Positions 15,314 through 44,342 of a stretch of 64,000 nt of DNA are shown here, in pieces. The stretch comes from Conexibacter woesei Iso977N (GTDB taxonomy: Bacteria > Actinomycetota > Thermoleophilia > Solirubrobacterales > Solirubrobacteraceae): the NCBI RefSeq assembly GCF_000424625.1, contig NZ_AUKG01000004.1, positions 124,001 to 188,000 of the forward strand, given 5' to 3'. Positions within the stretch are counted from its first letter, which is position 1. Each line of letters opens with the position of its first letter. The notes under the pieces were generated by a model that made no database searches, was not told the origin of the DNA, and saw only the letters and a program-made list of their open reading frames with translations. A program made the translations under genes and the position numbers.

Positions 15314-15358
15314 TTGACGCAATCCTTGCGTTCACGTTACTATTTGCGCCGATGCAAA
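15314..15358 (+). promoter_or_regulatory. marR promoter with two palindromic sites
   Basis: TTGACG (15314-15319) and TACTAT (15338-15343), 18 bases apart, form a good sigma-70-type promoter 8 bases before the marR ATG. A perfect palindrome ACGCAA-TCC-TTGCGT (15317-15331) overlaps the -35 box. A second symmetric pair TTTGC-N6-GCAAA (15343-15358) straddles the start codon. Both share TTGC/GCAA half-sites, so they are probably two MarR operators giving autorepression. Confidence 0.72.
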
Positions 15359-15846
15359 CGACAGGCGTCACGGCCGAGCAGCTCGCCGACATGATGGCGG
15401 CGTTCATGGCCACGGCCATGAAGGGCTCGCAGACCCAGGTCTTCCACGTGGTGGAGGAGCTGGAGCTGTCGATGACGCAGTTCAAGATCCTGCACATCCT
15501 CGACGGCGTCGATCGCGAGCTGACGCCGTCCGAGCTGGCCCAGTTCGTGGGGTTGAGCCCCGCGGCCACCGGGCGGGCGGTCGACGCGCTGGTCCGCGCG
15601 GGACTCGTCACGCGCCGCGACGACGACGCCGACCGGCGCGTCAAGCGGCTCACGCTCACCCCGACGGGCACCACCGCCGTCGACCGCATCACCCAGGCGC
15701 GCCTCGAAGCGCTCGCCAACACGGTGTCCACCCTGGACGCCGATCAGCGCGACGCGCTCGCCGCCGCTCTGGCCCCTCTCCTCCCCGACTCCCCCGACGG
15801 CGTGTGCGGCTCGAAGCCGCGCACGCAGGAGGCACCTCCAGCATGA
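15352..15846 (+). CDS. MarR-family transcriptional regulator
   Basis: 164 residues with a winged helix: LTPSELAQFVGLSPAATGRAVDALVRAGLVTRRDD, then DRRVKRLTLTPTG (the wing). MarR proteins bind small phenolic or drug-like ligands and release DNA. Its stop overlaps the start of the efflux gene (ATGA), so regulator and pump are co-transcribed from the operator-bearing promoter upstream. This is the standard design of a drug-inducible efflux operon. Confidence 0.92.
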   Translation: MQTTGVTAEQLADMMAAFMATAMKGSQTQVFHVVEELELSMTQFKILHILDGVDRELTPSELAQFVGLSPAATGRAVDALVRAGLVTRRDDDADRRVKRLTLTPTGTTAVDRITQARLEALANTVSTLDADQRDALAAALAPLLPDSPDGVCGSKPRTQEAPPA

Positions 15847-17390
15847 GCTCTCCCCAGAACGGCGCCGCCGCGGCGCCGGCCAGGGTCTTCGACAAGGCGC
15901 TGATCAGCGTCGCGATCGTCGTCGTCCTCGGCACGTTCATGTCGATCCTGGACACCACGATCGTCAACGTCGCGATCAACACGCTGTCCAAGGACTTCAA
16001 CACCGACCTGGCGACGATCCAGTGGGTCTCGACCGGCTACATGTTGGCCTTGGCCACCGTGATCCCGCTGACCGGCTGGGCCGCGGACCGCTTCGGCACC
16101 AAGCGCTTGTACATCATCTCGATCAGCCTGTTCCTGGTCGGCTCGGCGCTGAGCGGCGCCGCGTGGTCGGCCGGCTCGCTGATCGCGTTCCGGATCCTGC
16201 AGGGCCTCGGCGGCGGCATGATCATGCCCGCGGGCATGACGATCCTGTCCAAGGCGGCGGGCCCGCAGCGCATGGGCCGCGTCATGGGCATCGTCGGCGT
16301 CCCGATGCTGATGGGCCCGATCATCGGCCCGATCCTCGGCGGCTGGCTCGTCGACGACGTGTCGTGGCGCTGGATCTTCTACGTCAACATCCCGGTCGGC
16401 GCGGTCGCCCTGACCGCCGCGACCCGGCTGCTGCCGCGCGACAAGCCGAGCGCGATCGAGAAGCTCGACTGGCTCGGCCTGCTGATGCTCTCCCCCGGCC
16501 TCGCCGCGTTCGTGTACGGGTTGGCCGAGACGTCGTCGTCCGGCGGCCTCGGCGCGACCAAGGCGTGGCTGCCGATGGTCGTCGGCGCGACCCTGATCGG
16601 CACGTTCATCTGGCACGCCGCGCGTGAGCGCCAGCCGCTGATCGACGTCAAGCTGTTCAAGAACCGGACGATGAGCGCCTCGGCCGCGACGACCGGGACG
16701 TTCGCGATGGCGATGTTCGGCGCGATGTTCCTGATCCCGCTCTACTACCAGGTGGTGCGCGAGAAGTCGGCGCTGGACGCCGGCCTCCTGCTGGCGCCCC
16801 AGGGCGTCGGCGCGGCGATCATGATGCCGATCGCGGGCAAGCTGACCGACGACCTCGGGGCGGGCAAGATCGTCCTCGGCGGCCTCGGCTTCCTGTTCCT
16901 CGGGCTGCTGGGCTGGACGCAGGTGACCGACGACACGTCGTTCTTCATCCTCGGCGGCTCCCAGTTCCTGATGGGGCTGGGCATGGGCGCGGCGATGATG
17001 CCGGCGATGTCGGCGGCCTACGCGACGCTGCAGCGCCAGCAGATCGCGCGAGCGACCACAGCGCTCAACATCATCCAGCGCGTGGGCGGCTCGATCGGTA
17101 CGGCGTTCCTGTCGGTCATCCTCACCCACCAGCTGGTCTCGCGCCTACCCGGCGCGGGCAGCGGCGGGCTGGGCGCCGCGCAGAAGCTGACGCCTACCCA
17201 ACATGATGTGGTCGCTCCGAGGATCGCGGAGGCCTTCGGGAACACGTTCTGGTTCGCCGCGGGCGCGATCCTGCTGGCGCTGATCCCGGCGCTGATGCTC
17301 CCGCGCAGGAAGCCGGACCTCAGCGACCCGCAGCAGATCGACGCGCGGACCGAGGCCGAAGAGGCCGAAGCCGTCCTCGTCGAGATCTAG
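15843..17390 (+). CDS. MFS drug efflux transporter, DHA2 (14-TM) family
   Basis: 515 residues with about 14 membrane segments. The DHA2 motif SILDTTIVNVAINTLSKDF is in the first helix and WRWIFYVNIPVG follows helix 5. The family exports drugs and dyes by proton antiport. An AGGAGG lies 10 bases upstream of the ATG at 15843, but it pairs with CCTCC right after it (GGAGG-CA-CCTCC, 15828-15839), so the ribosome site could be partly masked. Coupled to marR by ATGA. It converges on the oxidoreductase gene, sharing CTAG. Confidence 0.9.
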   Translation: MSSPQNGAAAAPARVFDKALISVAIVVVLGTFMSILDTTIVNVAINTLSKDFNTDLATIQWVSTGYMLALATVIPLTGWAADRFGTKRLYIISISLFLVGSALSGAAWSAGSLIAFRILQGLGGGMIMPAGMTILSKAAGPQRMGRVMGIVGVPMLMGPIIGPILGGWLVDDVSWRWIFYVNIPVGAVALTAATRLLPRDKPSAIEKLDWLGLLMLSPGLAAFVYGLAETSSSGGLGATKAWLPMVVGATLIGTFIWHAARERQPLIDVKLFKNRTMSASAATTGTFAMAMFGAMFLIPLYYQVVREKSALDAGLLLAPQGVGAAIMMPIAGKLTDDLGAGKIVLGGLGFLFLGLLGWTQVTDDTSFFILGGSQFLMGLGMGAAMMPAMSAAYATLQRQQIARATTALNIIQRVGGSIGTAFLSVILTHQLVSRLPGAGSGGLGAAQKLTPTQHDVVAPRIAEAFGNTFWFAAGAILLALIPALMLPRRKPDLSDPQQIDARTEAEEAEAVLVEI

Positions 17391-18373
17391 CGGACGTCGA
17401 GCACGACCTTCCCCAGCGCGCCGCGGCCGTCGATCGTCTTCAGGGCGTCGGCGGCCGCGTCGAGCGGGAAGCGCTGCCCGACGATCGGGTCGATGTGGCC
17501 GCCGGCGATCAGCTCGTCGATGGCCGCGCCGATCTCCAGGTTCACCGGCGGGTTGGACAGCACCCACTCGCCCCAGCCGGCGCCGATGACCTCGGTGTTC
17601 CTGAGCAGCAGCCGGTTGACCCTGACCTCGGGGATCGACCCGCCGGTGAAGCCGACGACGACGACGCGGCCCGCGCGGCGCAGGGAGCGCAGCGAGTCGG
17701 TGAAGCGATCGCCGCCGACCGGGTCGAGCACGAGGTGCACGCCGCCGCCGGAGAGCTCGACGGCCTCGTCCTTCCAGGCGCCGTCGCTGCGGACCACGTG
17801 ATCGGCGCCCGCGCGCTTGGCGACCTCGGCCTTCTCGTCGGTCGAGACGACCGCGATCGTCGTCGCGCCCAGACCCTTGGCGACCTGGATCGACGCGGTC
17901 CCGACGCCGCCCGCGGCGCCGTGGATCAGGACCGTCTCGCCCTCCGCCAGGCGCCCGCGCAGCTTCAGCGCGAAGTAGGCCGTGTGGTAGTTGAGGATCA
18001 ACGCCGCGCCCTGGGCGAAGTCCAGCGCGTCCGGGATCTTGAACGTCAGGAACGTCGGCGCGACCGCGACCTCGGCGAACCCGCCGAGCATGCAGAACGC
18101 CGCGACGCGGTCGCCCGGCTGCAGCGGCGAGTCACCCCTGACCTCGCGCACCACGCCACCGACCTCGCTGCCCGGGACGAACGGCAGCGGCGGCCTGACC
18201 TGGTACTCGCCGCGCGTCTGCAGCACCTCCGGGAACGACACGCCCGCGGCATGGACATCAACAAGGACGCCGGAGCCCGGCGTCATCGGATGCTCGGCCC
18301 CGGGCTCCGGGACATCGACGATCTTCAGGGCGGTGTCCGGGCCGGTCAGCTCGGTGATCTGCAGAGCGCGCAT
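17387..18373 (-). CDS. NADPH:quinone oxidoreductase-like MDR protein
   Basis: 328 residues of the medium-chain reductase family without the structural-zinc cysteines. The nucleotide-binding motif is IHGAAGGVGTASIQVAKGLG; the catalytic-domain pattern FVPGSEVGGVVREVG-like (FVPGSEVGGVVREVRG) and GDRVAAFC follow the N-terminus. Members reduce quinones or enoyl compounds with NADPH. A TAGGGT hexamer ends 6 bases before the ATG at 18373, and a perfect 20-base palindrome directly abuts it, so the gene is probably repressed by a regulator encoded elsewhere. Confidence 0.88.
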   Translation of the reverse strand: MRALQITELTGPDTALKIVDVPEPGAEHPMTPGSGVLVDVHAAGVSFPEVLQTRGEYQVRPPLPFVPGSEVGGVVREVRGDSPLQPGDRVAAFCMLGGFAEVAVAPTFLTFKIPDALDFAQGAALILNYHTAYFALKLRGRLAEGETVLIHGAAGGVGTASIQVAKGLGATTIAVVSTDEKAEVAKRAGADHVVRSDGAWKDEAVELSGGGVHLVLDPVGGDRFTDSLRSLRRAGRVVVVGFTGGSIPEVRVNRLLLRNTEVIGAGWGEWVLSNPPVNLEIGAAIDELIAGGHIDPIVGQRFPLDAAADALKTIDGRGALGKVVLDVR

Positions 18374-18379
18374 GCCCGC

Positions 18380-18405
18380 ACCCTAACTTGAATCACGATT
18401 CAAGT
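18380..18405 (-). promoter_or_regulatory. Promoter and 20-base palindromic operator of the quinone oxidoreductase
   Basis: ACTTGAATCACGATTCAAGT (18386-18405) is a perfect 20-base inverted repeat. On the minus strand it lies directly upstream of TAGGGT (18380-18385), the presumed -10 element of the leaderless oxidoreductase gene, so a bound protein would cover the space between -35 and -10. The symmetry and size suit a TetR-type dimer. No TetR gene is adjacent. Confidence 0.7.
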
Positions 18406-18483
18406 GCAGCGGCAGCGGCGGCGCTGCGCTGGGGCGACGCAGGCGATCGCGGTGTGGCTCGTCGCCGCGCCGGGACAGGGAGC

Positions 18484-18526
18484 GAACGGTGCATTGGGGC
18501 TCGCAGAGAGCCCAAATGCACCGTTC
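18484..18526 (+). repeat. Dispersed hairpin repeat, copy 1 (loop GCAGA)
   Basis: Left arm GAACGGTGCATTGGGGCTC (18484-18502), loop GCAGA (18503-18507), right arm 18508-18526. The 19-base stem has a single mismatch opposite the variable base after GGTGCATT. It shares GGTGCATT and GGGCTC with the copy at 37416-37456. The loop differs by one base from the GCGGA loop of the other copies. Confidence 0.8.
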
Positions 18527-18530
18527 ACCC

Positions 18531-18577
18531 GTCAACGGCAGATCGGTGTTCGCGGAGAACACCCAACTGCCGTTGAC
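18531..18577 (+). repeat. Dispersed hairpin repeat, copy 2 (loop GCGGA)
   Basis: Left arm 18531-18551, loop GCGGA (18552-18556), right arm 18557-18577; a 21-base stem with two mismatches. The stem sequence is unlike copy 1 except for the base pairs closing the loop (TTC-GCGGA-GAA). Conserved loop with changed but still pairing stem is the hallmark of this repeat family. Confidence 0.78.
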
Positions 18578-18596
18578 CCCGCCCCGCCCCGCCCCG
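18577..18596 (-). other. (CCCCG)4 tract, G-quadruplex motif on the minus strand
   Basis: Four perfect CCCCG units. The minus strand reads four GGGG runs separated by single C bases, a canonical G-quadruplex pattern. It directly follows hairpin copy 2 and lies inside the 30-base outer arms. Confidence 0.7.
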
Positions 18597-18722
18597 CCTG
18601 TCCCGGCACGGCGACGAGCCACACCGGGAACGGTGGCGCCTCCGCCAACGCCTTTCCCCATCGATGCCCACCCGCGAACGCCCCGCGCCACCACCCACGC
18701 GCCGCACGGAACGCCACCACCG

Positions 18723-20411
18723 TCACGCCGTGGCGCTCTGAGCCTCGCCCCGCCCGAGGATGCGGCCGTGGCCGATCCGGATGACCTCGTCGGCGCGGGC
18801 GACGGTCGAGAGGCGGTGGGCGATGATCAGCGAGGTGCGGCCGTGCAGCAGCTGGTCCAGCGCGCGCTCGATCAGCAGCTCGGTCGGGCGGTCGATGTTG
18901 GAGGTCGCCTCGTCGAGGATCAGGATCCGCGGGTCGGCGAGCAGCGCGCGGGCGATCGAGATCAGCTGGCGCTCGCCCGCGCTCAGCCCGCTGCCGCCCT
19001 CGCGGACCGGATGGTCCAGGCCTTCCGGGAAGCGGCGCGCGAGCCGGTCGAGGCCGAGCATCGCCGCGGTCTCGCGGACCTGCGTGTCGCTCGCGTCCGG
19101 CCGCGCGAAGCGGATGTTGTCCGCGATCGTGCCCGAGAACAGGAACGGGTCCTGGAGCACGACGCCGAGCTGGCGGCGGTAGGCGTGCAGGTCGACCTCG
19201 CGCAGGTCGATGCCATCAACCAGCACAGCCCCCTCGCTGGGGTCGTAGAAGCGTGCGACGAGCTTGGCCAGCGTCGACTTCCCGCCGCCGGACTCGCCGA
19301 CCAGCGCCGTGCAGCCGCCGACGGGGATCGTCAGGTCGATCCCGTGCAGCACCTCGTTGTCGCCGTACTTGAAGCGCACGCCGTCGAGCCGGACCTCGCC
19401 GCGCACGCGGCCGAGGTCGCGCGGGCGCTGCGGCGAGCGGACCTCGGGCTCCTCGTCGAGGACCGCGCCGATCTTGACCATCGCCGCGGTCGCCGACTGC
19501 ACCTGCGCGTAGAGGTCGGAGAGGTCCTGCAGCGGCTGGAAGACCAACCCCAACAGGAAGTACGCCGCGGCGAGCGTCCCGATCTCGCTGTCCTGGAGCA
19601 CGCCCGCGCCGAGCGCGAGCACCGCGATCGTCGCGACCACGCCGAGGAACTCGATCGACGGGAAGAACAGCGACGAGATCCGCTGCGCCTCGAAGTTGGC
19701 CCTGCGGTTGTCGTCGTTGAGCTCGTCGAAGCGCGCGCGGAACGCCCGCTCGCGCCGGAACGACTGCACGACCGCCATCCCCGCGACCGACTCAGCGATC
19801 TGCGCGGTGACCGCGCCGATCCGGTTGCGGACGTCGAGCTGGATGACGGCCGAGCGGCGCTGGAACCAGCGCGTGATCAGCAGCGCGGGCGGCAGCACGA
19901 CCAGCGCGATCAGCGCCAGCCGCCAGTCGTTGATGAACAACGCGGTGATCGCCGCCGGGATCAGCACGCTGCTGGTCACGAGCGTCGGCAGCCCCTGCGA
20001 CAGGACGTCGGAGATCGCGTCCACGTCGGACGTCAGCCGCGCGATGATCCACCCCGCGCGCTGCTCGGAGAAGTAGCGCAGCGACAGCGCCGTGAGGTGG
20101 TCGAAGAGCTCGCGCCGCAGGCCGAGGACGACCGCCTGGCCGAAGCGCGCCATCCCGCGGATCACGATCGAGTACAGGAAGAAGCCGAGCACCGACACCG
20201 CGACGTAGGCGCCCGCGATCTGCGCCAGCGCGTGCTCGTCCTTGGGCACGATCCCGGCGTTGATCGCCTGGCGCACGAGCAGCCAGGAGCCGCTGCGCGC
20301 CAGCGCCTCGGTGACCGCGCACGCGACCAGCAGCGCGATCCAGCGCCGCCGCTCGTGGACGTGGCGCCCGAGCGTCCGCAGCCCGGAGGGTGCCCTGCGC
20401 TCACGCGGCAA
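18723..20411 (-). CDS. ABC exporter half-transporter with canonical ATPase site
   Basis: 562 residues: an N-terminal six-helix exporter domain and a C-terminal ATPase. Walker A is GESGGGKST, signature GSGLSAGERQ, Walker B with catalytic glutamate ILILDEATSNID, and the switch histidine IIAHRLSTVARAD. All catalytic residues are intact. It overlaps the upstream half-transporter by 11 bases. Because the partner lacks the catalytic glutamate and histidine, the two most likely form a heterodimer of the TM287/288, LmrCD or BmrCD kind, usually exporting drugs or lipids. Confidence 0.9.
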   Translation of the reverse strand: MPRERRAPSGLRTLGRHVHERRRWIALLVACAVTEALARSGSWLLVRQAINAGIVPKDEHALAQIAGAYVAVSVLGFFLYSIVIRGMARFGQAVVLGLRRELFDHLTALSLRYFSEQRAGWIIARLTSDVDAISDVLSQGLPTLVTSSVLIPAAITALFINDWRLALIALVVLPPALLITRWFQRRSAVIQLDVRNRIGAVTAQIAESVAGMAVVQSFRRERAFRARFDELNDDNRRANFEAQRISSLFFPSIEFLGVVATIAVLALGAGVLQDSEIGTLAAAYFLLGLVFQPLQDLSDLYAQVQSATAAMVKIGAVLDEEPEVRSPQRPRDLGRVRGEVRLDGVRFKYGDNEVLHGIDLTIPVGGCTALVGESGGGKSTLAKLVARFYDPSEGAVLVDGIDLREVDLHAYRRQLGVVLQDPFLFSGTIADNIRFARPDASDTQVRETAAMLGLDRLARRFPEGLDHPVREGGSGLSAGERQLISIARALLADPRILILDEATSNIDRPTELLIERALDQLLHGRTSLIIAHRLSTVARADEVIRIGHGRILGRGEAQSATA

Positions 20412-37387: not shown

Positions 37388-37485
37388 CATTGGCGCGCCT
37401 CACGGTCTCGGTGTCAGCGGTGCATTCGGGCTCGCGGAGAGCCCAAATGCACCGCTCGTCTCGTGGGCGTGAGACATACCAATGG
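37388..37485 (+). repeat. Dispersed hairpin repeat, copy 3, upstream of the toxin-antitoxin pair
   Basis: The core is an 18-base stem with one mismatch, AGCGGTGCATTCGGGCTC (37416-37433), loop GCGGA (37434-37438) and right arm 37439-37456. It is nested in two weaker inverted pairs, GTCTC/GAGAC (37405 and 37471) and CCATTGG/CCAATGG (37388 and 37479). The element ends 5 bases before the -35 box of the antitoxin promoter. Its right flank CGCTCGTCTCGTGG is repeated after copy 4 at 38128-38140. Confidence 0.8.
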
Positions 37486-38059: not shown

Positions 38060-38091
38060 CGCCGCAGCGCGCGATGGGTCGCGGTGCCCAA

Positions 38092-38128
38092 CGGTGCATT
38101 TTGGTTCGCGGAGAACCAAAACGCACCG
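38092..38128 (+). repeat. Dispersed hairpin repeat, copy 4, downstream of the toxin-antitoxin pair
   Basis: CGGTGCATTTTGGTTC (38092-38107), loop GCGGA (38108-38112), right arm 38113-38128; a 16-base stem with one mismatch. Compared with copy 3, GGGCTC/GAGCCC has become TGGTTC/GAACCA, two compensatory base-pair changes around the unchanged loop. It starts 33 bases after the toxin stop, in the same orientation as copy 3. Confidence 0.8.
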
Positions 38129-38133
38129 CTCGT

Positions 38134-41877: not shown

Positions 41878-43362
41878 CTACAACTTCGCCAGCACCTCCC
41901 TGGCCGCGCGCTCGCCCGACGAGATCGCGCCGTCCATGTAGCCGTTCCAGTAGCCCGCGGTCTCGGTGCCCGCCCAGTGCACGGCGCCGACCGGCTCGGT
42001 GAGCTTCGGCCCGAAGCGCGTGAGCGTCCCCGGCCCCAGGACCGACGTCGGCGCGCCGCGCGTCCAGCGCTCCTCGACCCAGTCCTGCTCGAAGTAGTCG
42101 ATCGGCGACAGCGCCTGCGGGCCGAACGCGCTCGCGAAGTCGTCGAGCACCGCCTGCCTGCGATCCGCGGCCGACGCCGTCTGGTAGGTCGACCACGACT
42201 TCCCGCCCATGAACCCCATCAACACGCCCGGCGTGCCGTCGGGCGGCGAGTTGTCGAAGATCGCCGGGACCGCGCAGTCGCCGAGCTTGATGGCCTGGCC
42301 GTTGTACCCCGCCCTGCGCCAGAACGGCGTCTCGTAGATCGCCTCGCACTTGGCCAGCGTGCCGAGGATCATCCGGCGCCGGAGCGCGTCGTGCTCGGCG
42401 GGCAGCAGCGGATCCCAGTCGATCTCGACGGCCAGCGGCGGCGGGATCGCCACGACCGCCCGCGCGCCGCGCCAGGCGCGGCCGTCCTGCACGGTCACGG
42501 TGACGCCGCCGGCGTCGCTCTGCGCGATCGACGCCACCGGCGCGTTCAACACCACGTTGCTGCCGAGCGCCTGGGCCATCAACAGCGAAAGTCGTTGCGT
42601 GCCGCCGACCAGTCGCGAGTCCTGCGCGGCGTCCTTGGAGCCGATGCCGCGCTCCAGCGTGCCGGGCGTCGAGGCGTCGCCGTAGCCCGCGATCGTCGCC
42701 AGCAGGAACAGCATCGAGCAGTCCGAGGCCCGGGAACCGAGCGCCGGCGACAGGAACAGGTTCACCAGCGCCAGGATCCGCGACGAGTTGATGGTGTTGC
42801 TCCTGATCCACGTCTCGGCGGTCATGCCGTCGAGCGTCGCGGCGTCCCTGTAGGTCCAGGGCGCGTCGACTGGGAAGTCCTTGGCCATGGTGTCCAGCCG
42901 CAGGATCATCTGCGCGAGGTCGGGCAGCGCGAGCAGGTCCGGCGGGATGTCGCCCGTGTACGTGGTGGCGTGGCCGTCGGCGACGTAGACGCTGTTGCCC
43001 GGCTGGTAGCCGGGGTAGGTGCCGACGCCCAGCTCCCTGCACAGCGCCAGCGCGCGGTCCTGGGTCGGGCCGACGTACTGCCCACCCGCCTCGGTGACCT
43101 TGCCGCCGCCGAGGTCGTGGTTGAGGGTCCGGCCGCCGACGCGGTCGCGCGCCTCCAGCACGACCACCGACTTGCCCGCCGCGACGAGGTTGCGCGCGGT
43201 CGTCAGGCCCGCCAGCCCGGCGCCGACGATCACGGCGTCGACGTCGCTCGGCGCGGCGGCCGCCTGCGCGCTGCTCCGCTCTCCCCCGGCCAGCATCAGC
43301 CCGAGCCCGCTCGCGCCGGCCCAGCCCAGCGCGCCGCGCCGCGTCAGCTTCCCTCGTTCCAC
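41878..43362 (-). CDS. Flavin-containing amine oxidase, Tat-exported
   Basis: 494 residues from GTG at 43362 with GGGAG upstream. An N-terminal LTRRGALGWAGASGLGLML segment is a twin-arginine signal. The FAD-binding motif is VIVGAGLAGLTTARNLVAAG with VVVLEARDRVGGR; the C-terminus has VHWAGTETAGYWNGYMDGAI, the amine-oxidase FAD-binding loop. It oxidises primary or polyamines, or related L-amino compounds, outside the membrane. It is transcribed in the same direction as the presenilin-like gene but separated from it by 185 bases with a strong hairpin. Confidence 0.9.
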   Translation of the reverse strand: MERGKLTRRGALGWAGASGLGLMLAGGERSSAQAAAAPSDVDAVIVGAGLAGLTTARNLVAAGKSVVVLEARDRVGGRTLNHDLGGGKVTEAGGQYVGPTQDRALALCRELGVGTYPGYQPGNSVYVADGHATTYTGDIPPDLLALPDLAQMILRLDTMAKDFPVDAPWTYRDAATLDGMTAETWIRSNTINSSRILALVNLFLSPALGSRASDCSMLFLLATIAGYGDASTPGTLERGIGSKDAAQDSRLVGGTQRLSLLMAQALGSNVVLNAPVASIAQSDAGGVTVTVQDGRAWRGARAVVAIPPPLAVEIDWDPLLPAEHDALRRRMILGTLAKCEAIYETPFWRRAGYNGQAIKLGDCAVPAIFDNSPPDGTPGVLMGFMGGKSWSTYQTASAADRRQAVLDDFASAFGPQALSPIDYFEQDWVEERWTRGAPTSVLGPGTLTRFGPKLTEPVGAVHWAGTETAGYWNGYMDGAISSGERAAREVLAKL

Positions 43363-43454
43363 GAACCTCTCCCGTCGTTCGGCGACTCTCCTCAGATGGT
43401 TGATGCGAGATCGACCGTGGTCGTGATCGTGCGCACGGTGGATGCTGAGCGCCG

Positions 43455-43498
43455 CGCGACAGCGCAGCCGATCCTGGTTGGATCGGCAAGTTGTCGCG
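43455..43498 (-). terminator. Two-tier hairpin between presenilin-like and amine oxidase genes
   Basis: GCCGATCC-TGGTT-GGATCGGC (43467-43487) is a perfect 8-base stem, enclosed by CGCGACA (43455-43461) and TGTCGCG (43492-43498). It starts 50 bases downstream of the presenilin-like stop on that strand. There is no T-run, as is common for GC-rich actinobacterial terminators. A regulatory hairpin for the amine oxidase is the alternative. The rest of the 185-base gap shows nothing clear. Confidence 0.5.
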
Positions 43499-43547
43499 TG
43501 GCGATCAGCGCCGCCGGGCGTGCGAGCACGGCCGCGGGAATCTCGTA

Positions 43548-44342
43548 TCAGCCATCGGGAGCGGCAACGCGACGGCGGCGCCGAACTTGCGCCCAGACCT
43601 CCACGAGCACCAGGACGATCGCCACCGGGACGGTCGCCGGGAGCGTGTCGACGGTCAGGAACAGCTGGTCCCAGCACAGCGACACCACCAACAACGCGAC
43701 GGCGGGGATCAGCTGTGGGCGGCGCTCCGTCGCCAGCAGCCCGCCGAGCACCGCGGCGGCGAAGAAGTCGCCGTAGCCCATCGAGGCGTAGTGGAACGCC
43801 GCGGACTGCAGCTGCGGCAGCCCGGCGCCCGGCGCCGCGGCCTCCAGGACCGCGTTGGGCGCCTGCAGCGTGTTCCCGAAGACGAGGATCGCGTCGGAGA
43901 CCGCCATCGCGATCAACCCCAACTTGAGCAGCAGCAGCGGCGCCGCGCCGCCGAGCAGGCGCCCGAGCGTGATGACCGACCCCATGATCAACAGCAGCGT
44001 CGCGACCTGCCCCGGGCGCGAGCCGTCCTGGTCGGCCCAGGCGATCGCCAGCAGCGGGATCGCCAGCGGCGCCAGCCACCAGCGCGCGCCGTGCATCGCC
44101 CAGCCCAGCGCCAGCGCGCAGCCGGGCGGGATCAGCAGCAGCGCGACCCACGTCAGGACGTTGGCGGTGTCCGGGACCTGGTCGATCCCGACGATCACCG
44201 CGACGATGCACAGCGGCAGGATCAGCGCCCACCAGCCGCCGCGGAAGCGCTCCAGGAAGCGCGGGACGCCGGCCGCGGGAAGCGCGACGCACGCCGCCTG
44301 GGCGCCGGTCAGGACCAGGTTGTCCCACTCGAACCACAGCAC
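43548..44342 (-). CDS. Polytopic membrane protein with presenilin-like two-aspartate signature
   Basis: 264 residues from GTG at 44342, with TACGGT 8 bases upstream. About eight or nine membrane segments. Late in the protein, one helix carries AVSDAILVFG and the next carries SMGYGDFFAAAVLGG; some 35 residues later comes LPATVPVAIVL. This matches, in order and rough spacing, the YDxxxV aspartate, the GxGD aspartate and the PAL segment of presenilin/signal-peptide-peptidase-type intramembrane proteases. It is divergent to a HipA-like kinase. Assignment rests on motifs only; it could be an unrelated membrane protein. Confidence 0.6.
   Translation of the reverse strand: MLWFEWDNLVLTGAQAACVALPAAGVPRFLERFRGGWWALILPLCIVAVIVGIDQVPDTANVLTWVALLLIPPGCALALGWAMHGARWWLAPLAIPLLAIAWADQDGSRPGQVATLLLIMGSVITLGRLLGGAAPLLLLKLGLIAMAVSDAILVFGNTLQAPNAVLEAAAPGAGLPQLQSAAFHYASMGYGDFFAAAVLGGLLATERRPQLIPAVALLVVSLCWDQLFLTVDTLPATVPVAIVLVLVEVWAQVRRRRRVAAPDG

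Follow-up and report, generated by a model that had tools for sequence, protein, structure and literature searches.

A nested palindrome between two tandem genes is probably a degraded copy of a lineage-specific mobile repeat

Introduction

Palindromic repeats in bacteria are mostly portrayed as small hairpins whose use is unclear. In the 64-kb stretch of DNA analysed here, called the window throughout, the gap between an ABC exporter gene and a quinone oxidoreductase-like gene holds a much more elaborate set of nested inverted repeats. A preliminary description of this gap suggested that it could be a structured RNA, a cruciform-binding site or a recombination substrate, and the question is what kind of element occupies it. 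Positions are given in window numbering unless a contig is named. The genome holding the window is referred to as G000 and a relative of the same genus as G001; G002 to G006 are further relatives, and L followed by a number designates an individual locus.

Results

Structure and limits of the palindrome in the window

The nested palindrome is real. Outer arms of 30 bases with one mismatch had been described, and positions 18450-18479 and 18597-18626 are indeed complementary at 29 of 30 positions; a repeat finder extends these arms to 18433-18479 and 18597-18643 (47 nt, 83%). Between them the same program recovers the two long hairpins already noted, at 18482-18528 with the loop GCAGA (type A) and at 18531-18577 with the loop GCGGA (type B); in both, 19 of the 21 stem positions pair. 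The (CCCCG)4 tract, described as a G-quadruplex tract, is likewise present at 18577-18596. No strand is assigned to any of these parts. The RNA fold of 18420-18660 reaches -167.1 kcal/mol, compared with -110.6 +/- 4.9 kcal/mol for 200 dinucleotide-preserving shuffles, none of which equalled it (z -11.6). In a palindrome scan the nested palindrome is the top peak of the 64-kb window with a score of 28.5, against a maximum of 19.0 in five shuffled 20-kb stretches (3255 centres).

The extent of 18450-18626 first given to the feature holds for the palindrome and not for its limits, as the homology to the repeat family described below starts near 18433 and reaches the ABC stop codon at 18723. The right, ABC-side arm (18597-18722) matches the family arm up to this stop codon, and an arm profile, R1, built from 50 arms, recovers it at G000:C4:142612-142710 on the minus strand (63.3 bits, E 1.3e-16), which corresponds to window positions 18612-18710. 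The left, oxidoreductase-side arm (18433-18479) is truncated or degenerate when aligned with full copies and was not recovered by the profile; on this side the outer part of the arm is missing from the window copy. The location had been described as lying between two operons. The gap does separate the ABC exporter gene (18723-20411; Pfam ABC_membrane, ABC_tran) from the quinone oxidoreductase-like gene with zinc-type dehydrogenase domains (17387-18373; Pfam ADH_N, ADH_zinc_N), and with both genes on the minus strand it is a tandem gap, in which the exporter stop codon is followed by the element, next by the region upstream of the oxidoreductase gene and finally by the start of that gene. Just upstream of this start, an inverted repeat (ACTTGAATC / GATTCAAGT, 18386-18405) looks operator-like by eye, and a small regulator-like gene, which we take to be of the MarR type, is located at 15352-15846.

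Elsewhere in the window, isolated type A hairpins occur at 37413-37459 in a divergent gap and at 38087-38133 in a convergent gap; again, no strand is assigned. A second long imperfect hairpin at 43380-43565 has a stem of about 80 bp that includes G-U pairs when read on the plus strand, a palindrome score of 24 (shuffle maximum 19) and a fold of -165 kcal/mol for 43350-43600; no further copy was found among the fetched loci and no match in Rfam.

A family of dispersed palindromes

When a 221-base stretch of the window was used as query, the whole G000 genome returned 98 matching pieces, and other G000 copies fold as larger nested structures in 440-base windows. In a full copy, two mutually inverted arms of about 150-200 nt enclose the two 47-nt hairpins A and B, and the whole measures about 500 bp. 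The order common to 11 aligned copies is outer arm, a small GGTTCGGGGCCGAAC-like palindrome, hairpin B, hairpin A and then the reverse. In this alignment the small palindrome is missing in L022 and in the window copy, where the (CCCCG)4 tract sits near its usual place; the tract itself is absent from the 25 other family loci checked, none of which has three or more units. L024, L026 and L027 carry an additional small palindrome between B and A. Two copies, L157 and L058, show by eye an internal deletion in one arm, the one-sided loss expected of unstable long palindromes.

In G000, profile R1 gave 25 arm matches that group into at least 14 loci, including one deduced from a pair of contig ends; in G001 it gave at least 33 matches that group into at least 21 loci. 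Both locus counts are lower bounds, with 33 candidates scored per genome and all 33 matching in G001. In G001, 8 of the 21 loci cluster within about 220 kb of contig C1 (about 1.32-1.54 Mb). In G000, the end of contig C3 (588641-588819) and the start of contig C2 (1-226) both lie inside an element copy; the assembly probably breaks at the element here, and the two contigs may be neighbours.

Hairpins A and B are also found alone, without the large palindrome and in unrelated flanks. The collection drawn from 30 fetched loci and the window comprises 44 hairpins (26 A, 18 B), both single and within large copies. Short loops common in G000 are GCATA, GTATG, GCAGA and GCGGA, and GCATA recurs in G001 on different stems. 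The idea that palindromes insert into the centres of other palindromes was rejected: for 16 of 17 single hairpins the complementarity between the flanks stayed within chance, and the exception, L037 (p below 0.05), looks like the remnant of a larger copy. Together, the sequence comparisons indicate that the feature in the window belongs to an interspersed family, as one of its worn copies, and is not a unique RNA.

Recent copies, filled sites and empty sites

Four G000 copies, L016, L017, L018 and L019, share 88-95% identity across about 490-515 bp and lie at unlinked places, and their flanks do not align to one another. An all-against-all comparison of flanking genes identified a single element position common to the G000 and G001 sets, between the AlkA and GH genes (L019, L147); it is filled in both genomes, and the stops overlap in G005. 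The UDPGP/CtaG junction is filled in G001 (395 bases between stops) and in G006 (427 bases, with a differently sequenced nested palindrome) and empty in G000, G002 and G005, where the stops lie 1 base apart, lie 8 bases apart and overlap as CTAG, respectively. At AlkA/GH and UDPGP/CtaG alike, the filled sites hold each species' own sequence type. DegV/AI-2E is filled in G001 (360 bases) and empty in G000 and G002 (9 bases between stops); the gap measures 1163 bases in G003 and 147 bases in G006. PgsA/HD-GYP is filled in G000, and the two genes overlap in G001 and G004. The GlmS-AcpS site carries a copy in G000. G004 was considered as filled at DegV/AI-2E and AlkA/GH and then discarded, as both places hold other DNA, apparently small genes.

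UDPGP has the same C-terminal end (VLEG) whether its site is filled, as in G001, or empty, as in G000 and G005; DegV likewise ends in MAELGV in G001, where its site is filled, and in G000, where it is empty. The filled and empty pairs represent clean gains or clean losses. The UDPGP protein of G006 has 69% identity to the query, compared with 78-83% for the empty genomes. With the most divergent genome filled and less distant ones empty, repeated gain at a preferred junction would explain the pattern more simply than old presence followed by losses. No convincing target-site duplication was seen by eye in the flanks of young copies or in the filled and empty site pairs, and the outer ends of copies fade without a sharp stop. 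The best counterpart of the window's ABC gene in the relatives has 41% identity and none is close, so that the window site itself has no filled and empty comparison.

Placement relative to genes

The 13 large G000 copies examined, with the contig-end copy excluded from the 14, divide into 5 convergent, 8 tandem and no divergent sites; the absence of divergent sites has a p of 0.02. The 20 single hairpins in G000 comprise 8 convergent, 8 tandem and 2 divergent cases and 2 inside called ORFs. The convergent excess in G000 is not significant (p 0.14 for large copies, 0.06 for single hairpins), and convergent gaps of at most 60 bases amount to 3.8% if drawn by length and to 48% if each gap is weighted equally.

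The gene context was examined for 19 of the 21 loci in G001. It is convergent at 14 and tandem at 3, with no divergent case, and 2 loci lie inside ORFs that the simple ORF caller possibly miscalled. With convergent gaps accounting for a fraction of 0.237 of the intergenic length across 400 kb of G001, this excess gives p = 5.6e-7 for 14 of the 17 classified loci, or 5.8e-6 if the two unclassified loci count as misses; the test is conservative because the 400 kb were picked partly where copies cluster, so that the background contains copies. In 10 of the 14 convergent cases both distances from the element span to the flanking stops are at most 54 bases, some of them slightly negative. In L149 and L167 the span runs more than 100 bases past the called gene end, and L144 and L148 show no stop-to-stop fit. 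Considering both genomes, divergent gaps hold 0 of the 32 large copies examined, two of the 32 being unclassified.

The same form with other sequences in relatives

The preliminary description had proposed searching related genomes for the same nested layout, and the layout was found in relatives of the same genus with different arm and hairpin sequences. The arm region reads CATCGATG in G000 and CATCAAGGGCGTG in G001; in G004 and G005 it differs again, yet is mutually complementary, and the inner hairpin sequences also differ between species. G004 and G005, both of the same genus, gave 8 weak R1 arm matches each, and when five stretches were folded, several proved to be nested palindromes. 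G006 has its own element type. In G002 none was detected by the R1 profile or in a 200-kb palindrome scan, and in G003 none by the R1 profile, which would miss a G006-like type. Outside the genus, R1 produced single weak unpaired arm matches in 17 of 114 family genomes, which were treated as background. A wide distribution was rejected; the exact hairpin-A pattern matched three times in other actinobacteria (Bifidobacterium, Gordonia and Microbacterium), in a sequence collection that may lack near relatives, but the inner sequence differs and these matches are taken as chance.

Pairing within copies

Covariation in the stems, the second check that had been proposed, did not exceed shuffles within the G000 hairpins. 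For hairpin A (26 sequences), 87.9% of cells are paired compared with 87.8% in shuffles (223 of 500 shuffles at least equal), and for hairpin B (17 distinct sequences) the values are 88.0% and 87.5% (188 of 500). Pairing of both lies above slid controls (24-45% paired), as it would for any palindrome. Co-evolution of the two arms of a copy was rejected as well, as arms of one copy are no closer than arms of different copies. In G000 the agreement is 84.3% within and 83.2% between copies (p 0.22, 10 copies; p 0.07 for 7 copies, with three of the four recent ones left out), and in G001 it is 83.8% and 85.0% (p 0.83, 12 copies). The missing covariation and the missing same-copy match make the pairing within a genome look inherited from the repeat and not repaired in each copy.

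Search for a mobilising enzyme

The survey of transposases covered the Y1 family. Y1_Tnp genes are present at 8 loci in five genomes of the genus (G000, G001, G003, G005 and G006), and none of the 8 loci carries the hairpin motifs tested, which were those of the G000, G001 and G006 types; the best palindrome scores at these loci are 13-21. No similarity was found between the three G006 loci and four stretches of G006 that hold nested palindromes or hairpins. Presence of the gene and of the element agree loosely, G003 having the gene without detected elements and G004 elements without a detected gene, both in incomplete genomes. A RAYT was considered as mobiliser and rejected for want of linkage; the G006 gene in L231 is flanked by inverted repeats that form GGGGTCTGACCCC arrays and do not resemble the nested palindromes. 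Hairpins resembling GGGGTCAGACCCC or GGGGACTGTCCCC near the Y1 genes of G005 and G006 (L226, 1940-1984; L230, 1288-1339; L231, 1340-1374; L229, 1338-1368 and 2106-2136) belong to a different repeat class. A full-copy search of G000, with 40 candidates scored, gave 48 matches, all of them short copies or pieces as far as they were grouped.

Discussion

The feature in the window probably derives, as a degraded copy, from a mobile repeat that is lineage-specific and non-coding, and a non-autonomous, REPIN- or MITE-like mobile palindrome is favoured over a conserved RNA. Copies have been duplicated to unlinked places, their sites are empty in relatives, they are placed at gene ends, and they decay. 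The absence of covariation and of a same-copy arm match is what decaying copies of a palindromic master would be expected to show. We infer that a DNA-processing enzyme acting in trans would recognise the hairpin or the palindrome and paste copies, and that insertions would survive, or be aimed, at the ends of two genes, since in such a place a long palindrome interrupts neither a promoter nor a coding region. After insertion, the palindrome may serve passively as a bidirectional 3'-end structure for the adjacent transcripts, and copies would later decay, like the one in the window, by point mutations and by deletions on one side. The objection that the preliminary description itself had raised, that the arms might be remnants of an insertion sequence, comes nearest to this reading: the dispersal of the copies and the empty sites point to a mobile repeat, although a matching insertion sequence or transposase was not found.

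Several observations speak against mobility, namely that no transposase is linked, target-site duplications are not clear, the ends fade, and only 5 of 13 large G000 copies are convergent (p 0.14). In addition, mobility by itself leaves unexplained why relatives keep the layout and change the arms and hairpins. The joint change of both arms between species fits new master sequences, and selection for form may act at the level of the master. A related possibility, which we consider unlikely, is that a mobile palindrome has become aimed at or fitted to the convergent junction, where it would fill the space from stop to stop, leave both proteins intact and form a bidirectional transcript end, with only the architecture persisting across species.

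The stop-to-stop placement between convergent genes in G001 and the empty divergent gaps are also consistent with a functional transcript end kept by selection, in which a 3' hairpin on converging mRNAs would stop read-through, block antisense RNA or protect from exonucleases. The better-folding strand is moreover the sense strand in 7 of 7 large tandem copies of G000. This strand bias fails in G001 tandem copies (1 of 3) and in single hairpins (3 of 8), giving 11 of 18 overall, and a bias at the RNA level was therefore dropped. Orthologous gene pairs manage without the element, no compensatory change keeps the pairing within copies, and no hairpin followed by a U-tract was found between 18300 and 18800, where the window copy lacks even a run of four T or A. 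A transcript end kept by selection is thus rather unlikely, and the earlier judgement that the feature goes far beyond a terminator stands, given the missing U-tract and T or A runs and the recurrence of the layout in relatives. A conserved structured non-coding RNA, the first of the readings initially suggested, is very improbable. Its very stable fold and the layout common to relatives would suit it, but no Rfam family reached its gathering score in the whole window (nine matches, all far below), the G000 hairpins show no covariation above shuffles, hairpin sequences vary among species, and near-perfect palindromy makes both strands candidates. The short loops shared on different stems, and one layout with species-specific stems, might instead point to a site for a hairpin- or cruciform-binding protein with a nucleoid, gyrase or recombination function, whose sequence would co-evolve with the protein in each species; the modest copy numbers in two genomes (at least 14 and 21 loci) and the single weak, unpaired matches outside the genus render this improbable.

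MITEs are non-coding elements with long terminal inverted repeats that are dispersed and have empty sites in relatives. The present family resembles them in all these respects, coding capacity being judged by length and repeat structure, and may differ from them, in that neither a convincing target duplication nor sharp ends nor a parent insertion sequence was identified. With its 44 A and B hairpins it also has the short extragenic palindromes in many dispersed copies that are typical of REPs and REPINs. Beside 17 single hairpins, a GTAG tail on either strand was found in none and a CGTC tail on either strand in 3, and no RAYT flanked by the same repeats was detected at the 8 Y1_Tnp loci with the motifs tested.

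REP dimers inside long palindromes, GTAG-15 of A. variabilis and CGTC-1 of H. neapolitanus, are reported in PMC3733652, as are Y1 transposase genes with other inverted repeats on their flanks. As in these systems, short and often paired hairpins lie in a longer palindrome, which in those two species did not occur without them, are largely extragenic and are unevenly distributed among species (PMC3733652). The present stems are longer (about 21 bp compared with 5-13), as are the outer arms (about 150-200 nt compared with about 20-27), and the family has neither a GTAG tail nor a regular CGTC tail. Its hairpins also occur without the palindrome, and convergent stop-to-stop placement is dominant in one relative. 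According to PMC3116915, a REPIN is a REP doublet that forms a hairpin and is proposed to be moved by RAYT, with compensatory changes being common. Like this doublet, the present element is inverted around a spacer, forms a hairpin, is dispersed in extragenic space and has single units; unlike it, the present element has much longer arms, extra inner hairpins, no RAYT linkage and no compensatory changes above shuffles (PMC3116915). A narrow literature search returned no title describing the present family, which is weak evidence of novelty.

Conclusions

The family described here is large, nested and modular, keeps its form and changes its sequence between species, and is placed mostly at convergent junctions in one genome. 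It also advises caution, as hairpin-rich gaps resemble new RNAs if one genome is read alone. Two questions become testable with it: whether mobile repeats are targeted to transcript ends, and whether they may later take on a role as two-sided terminators.
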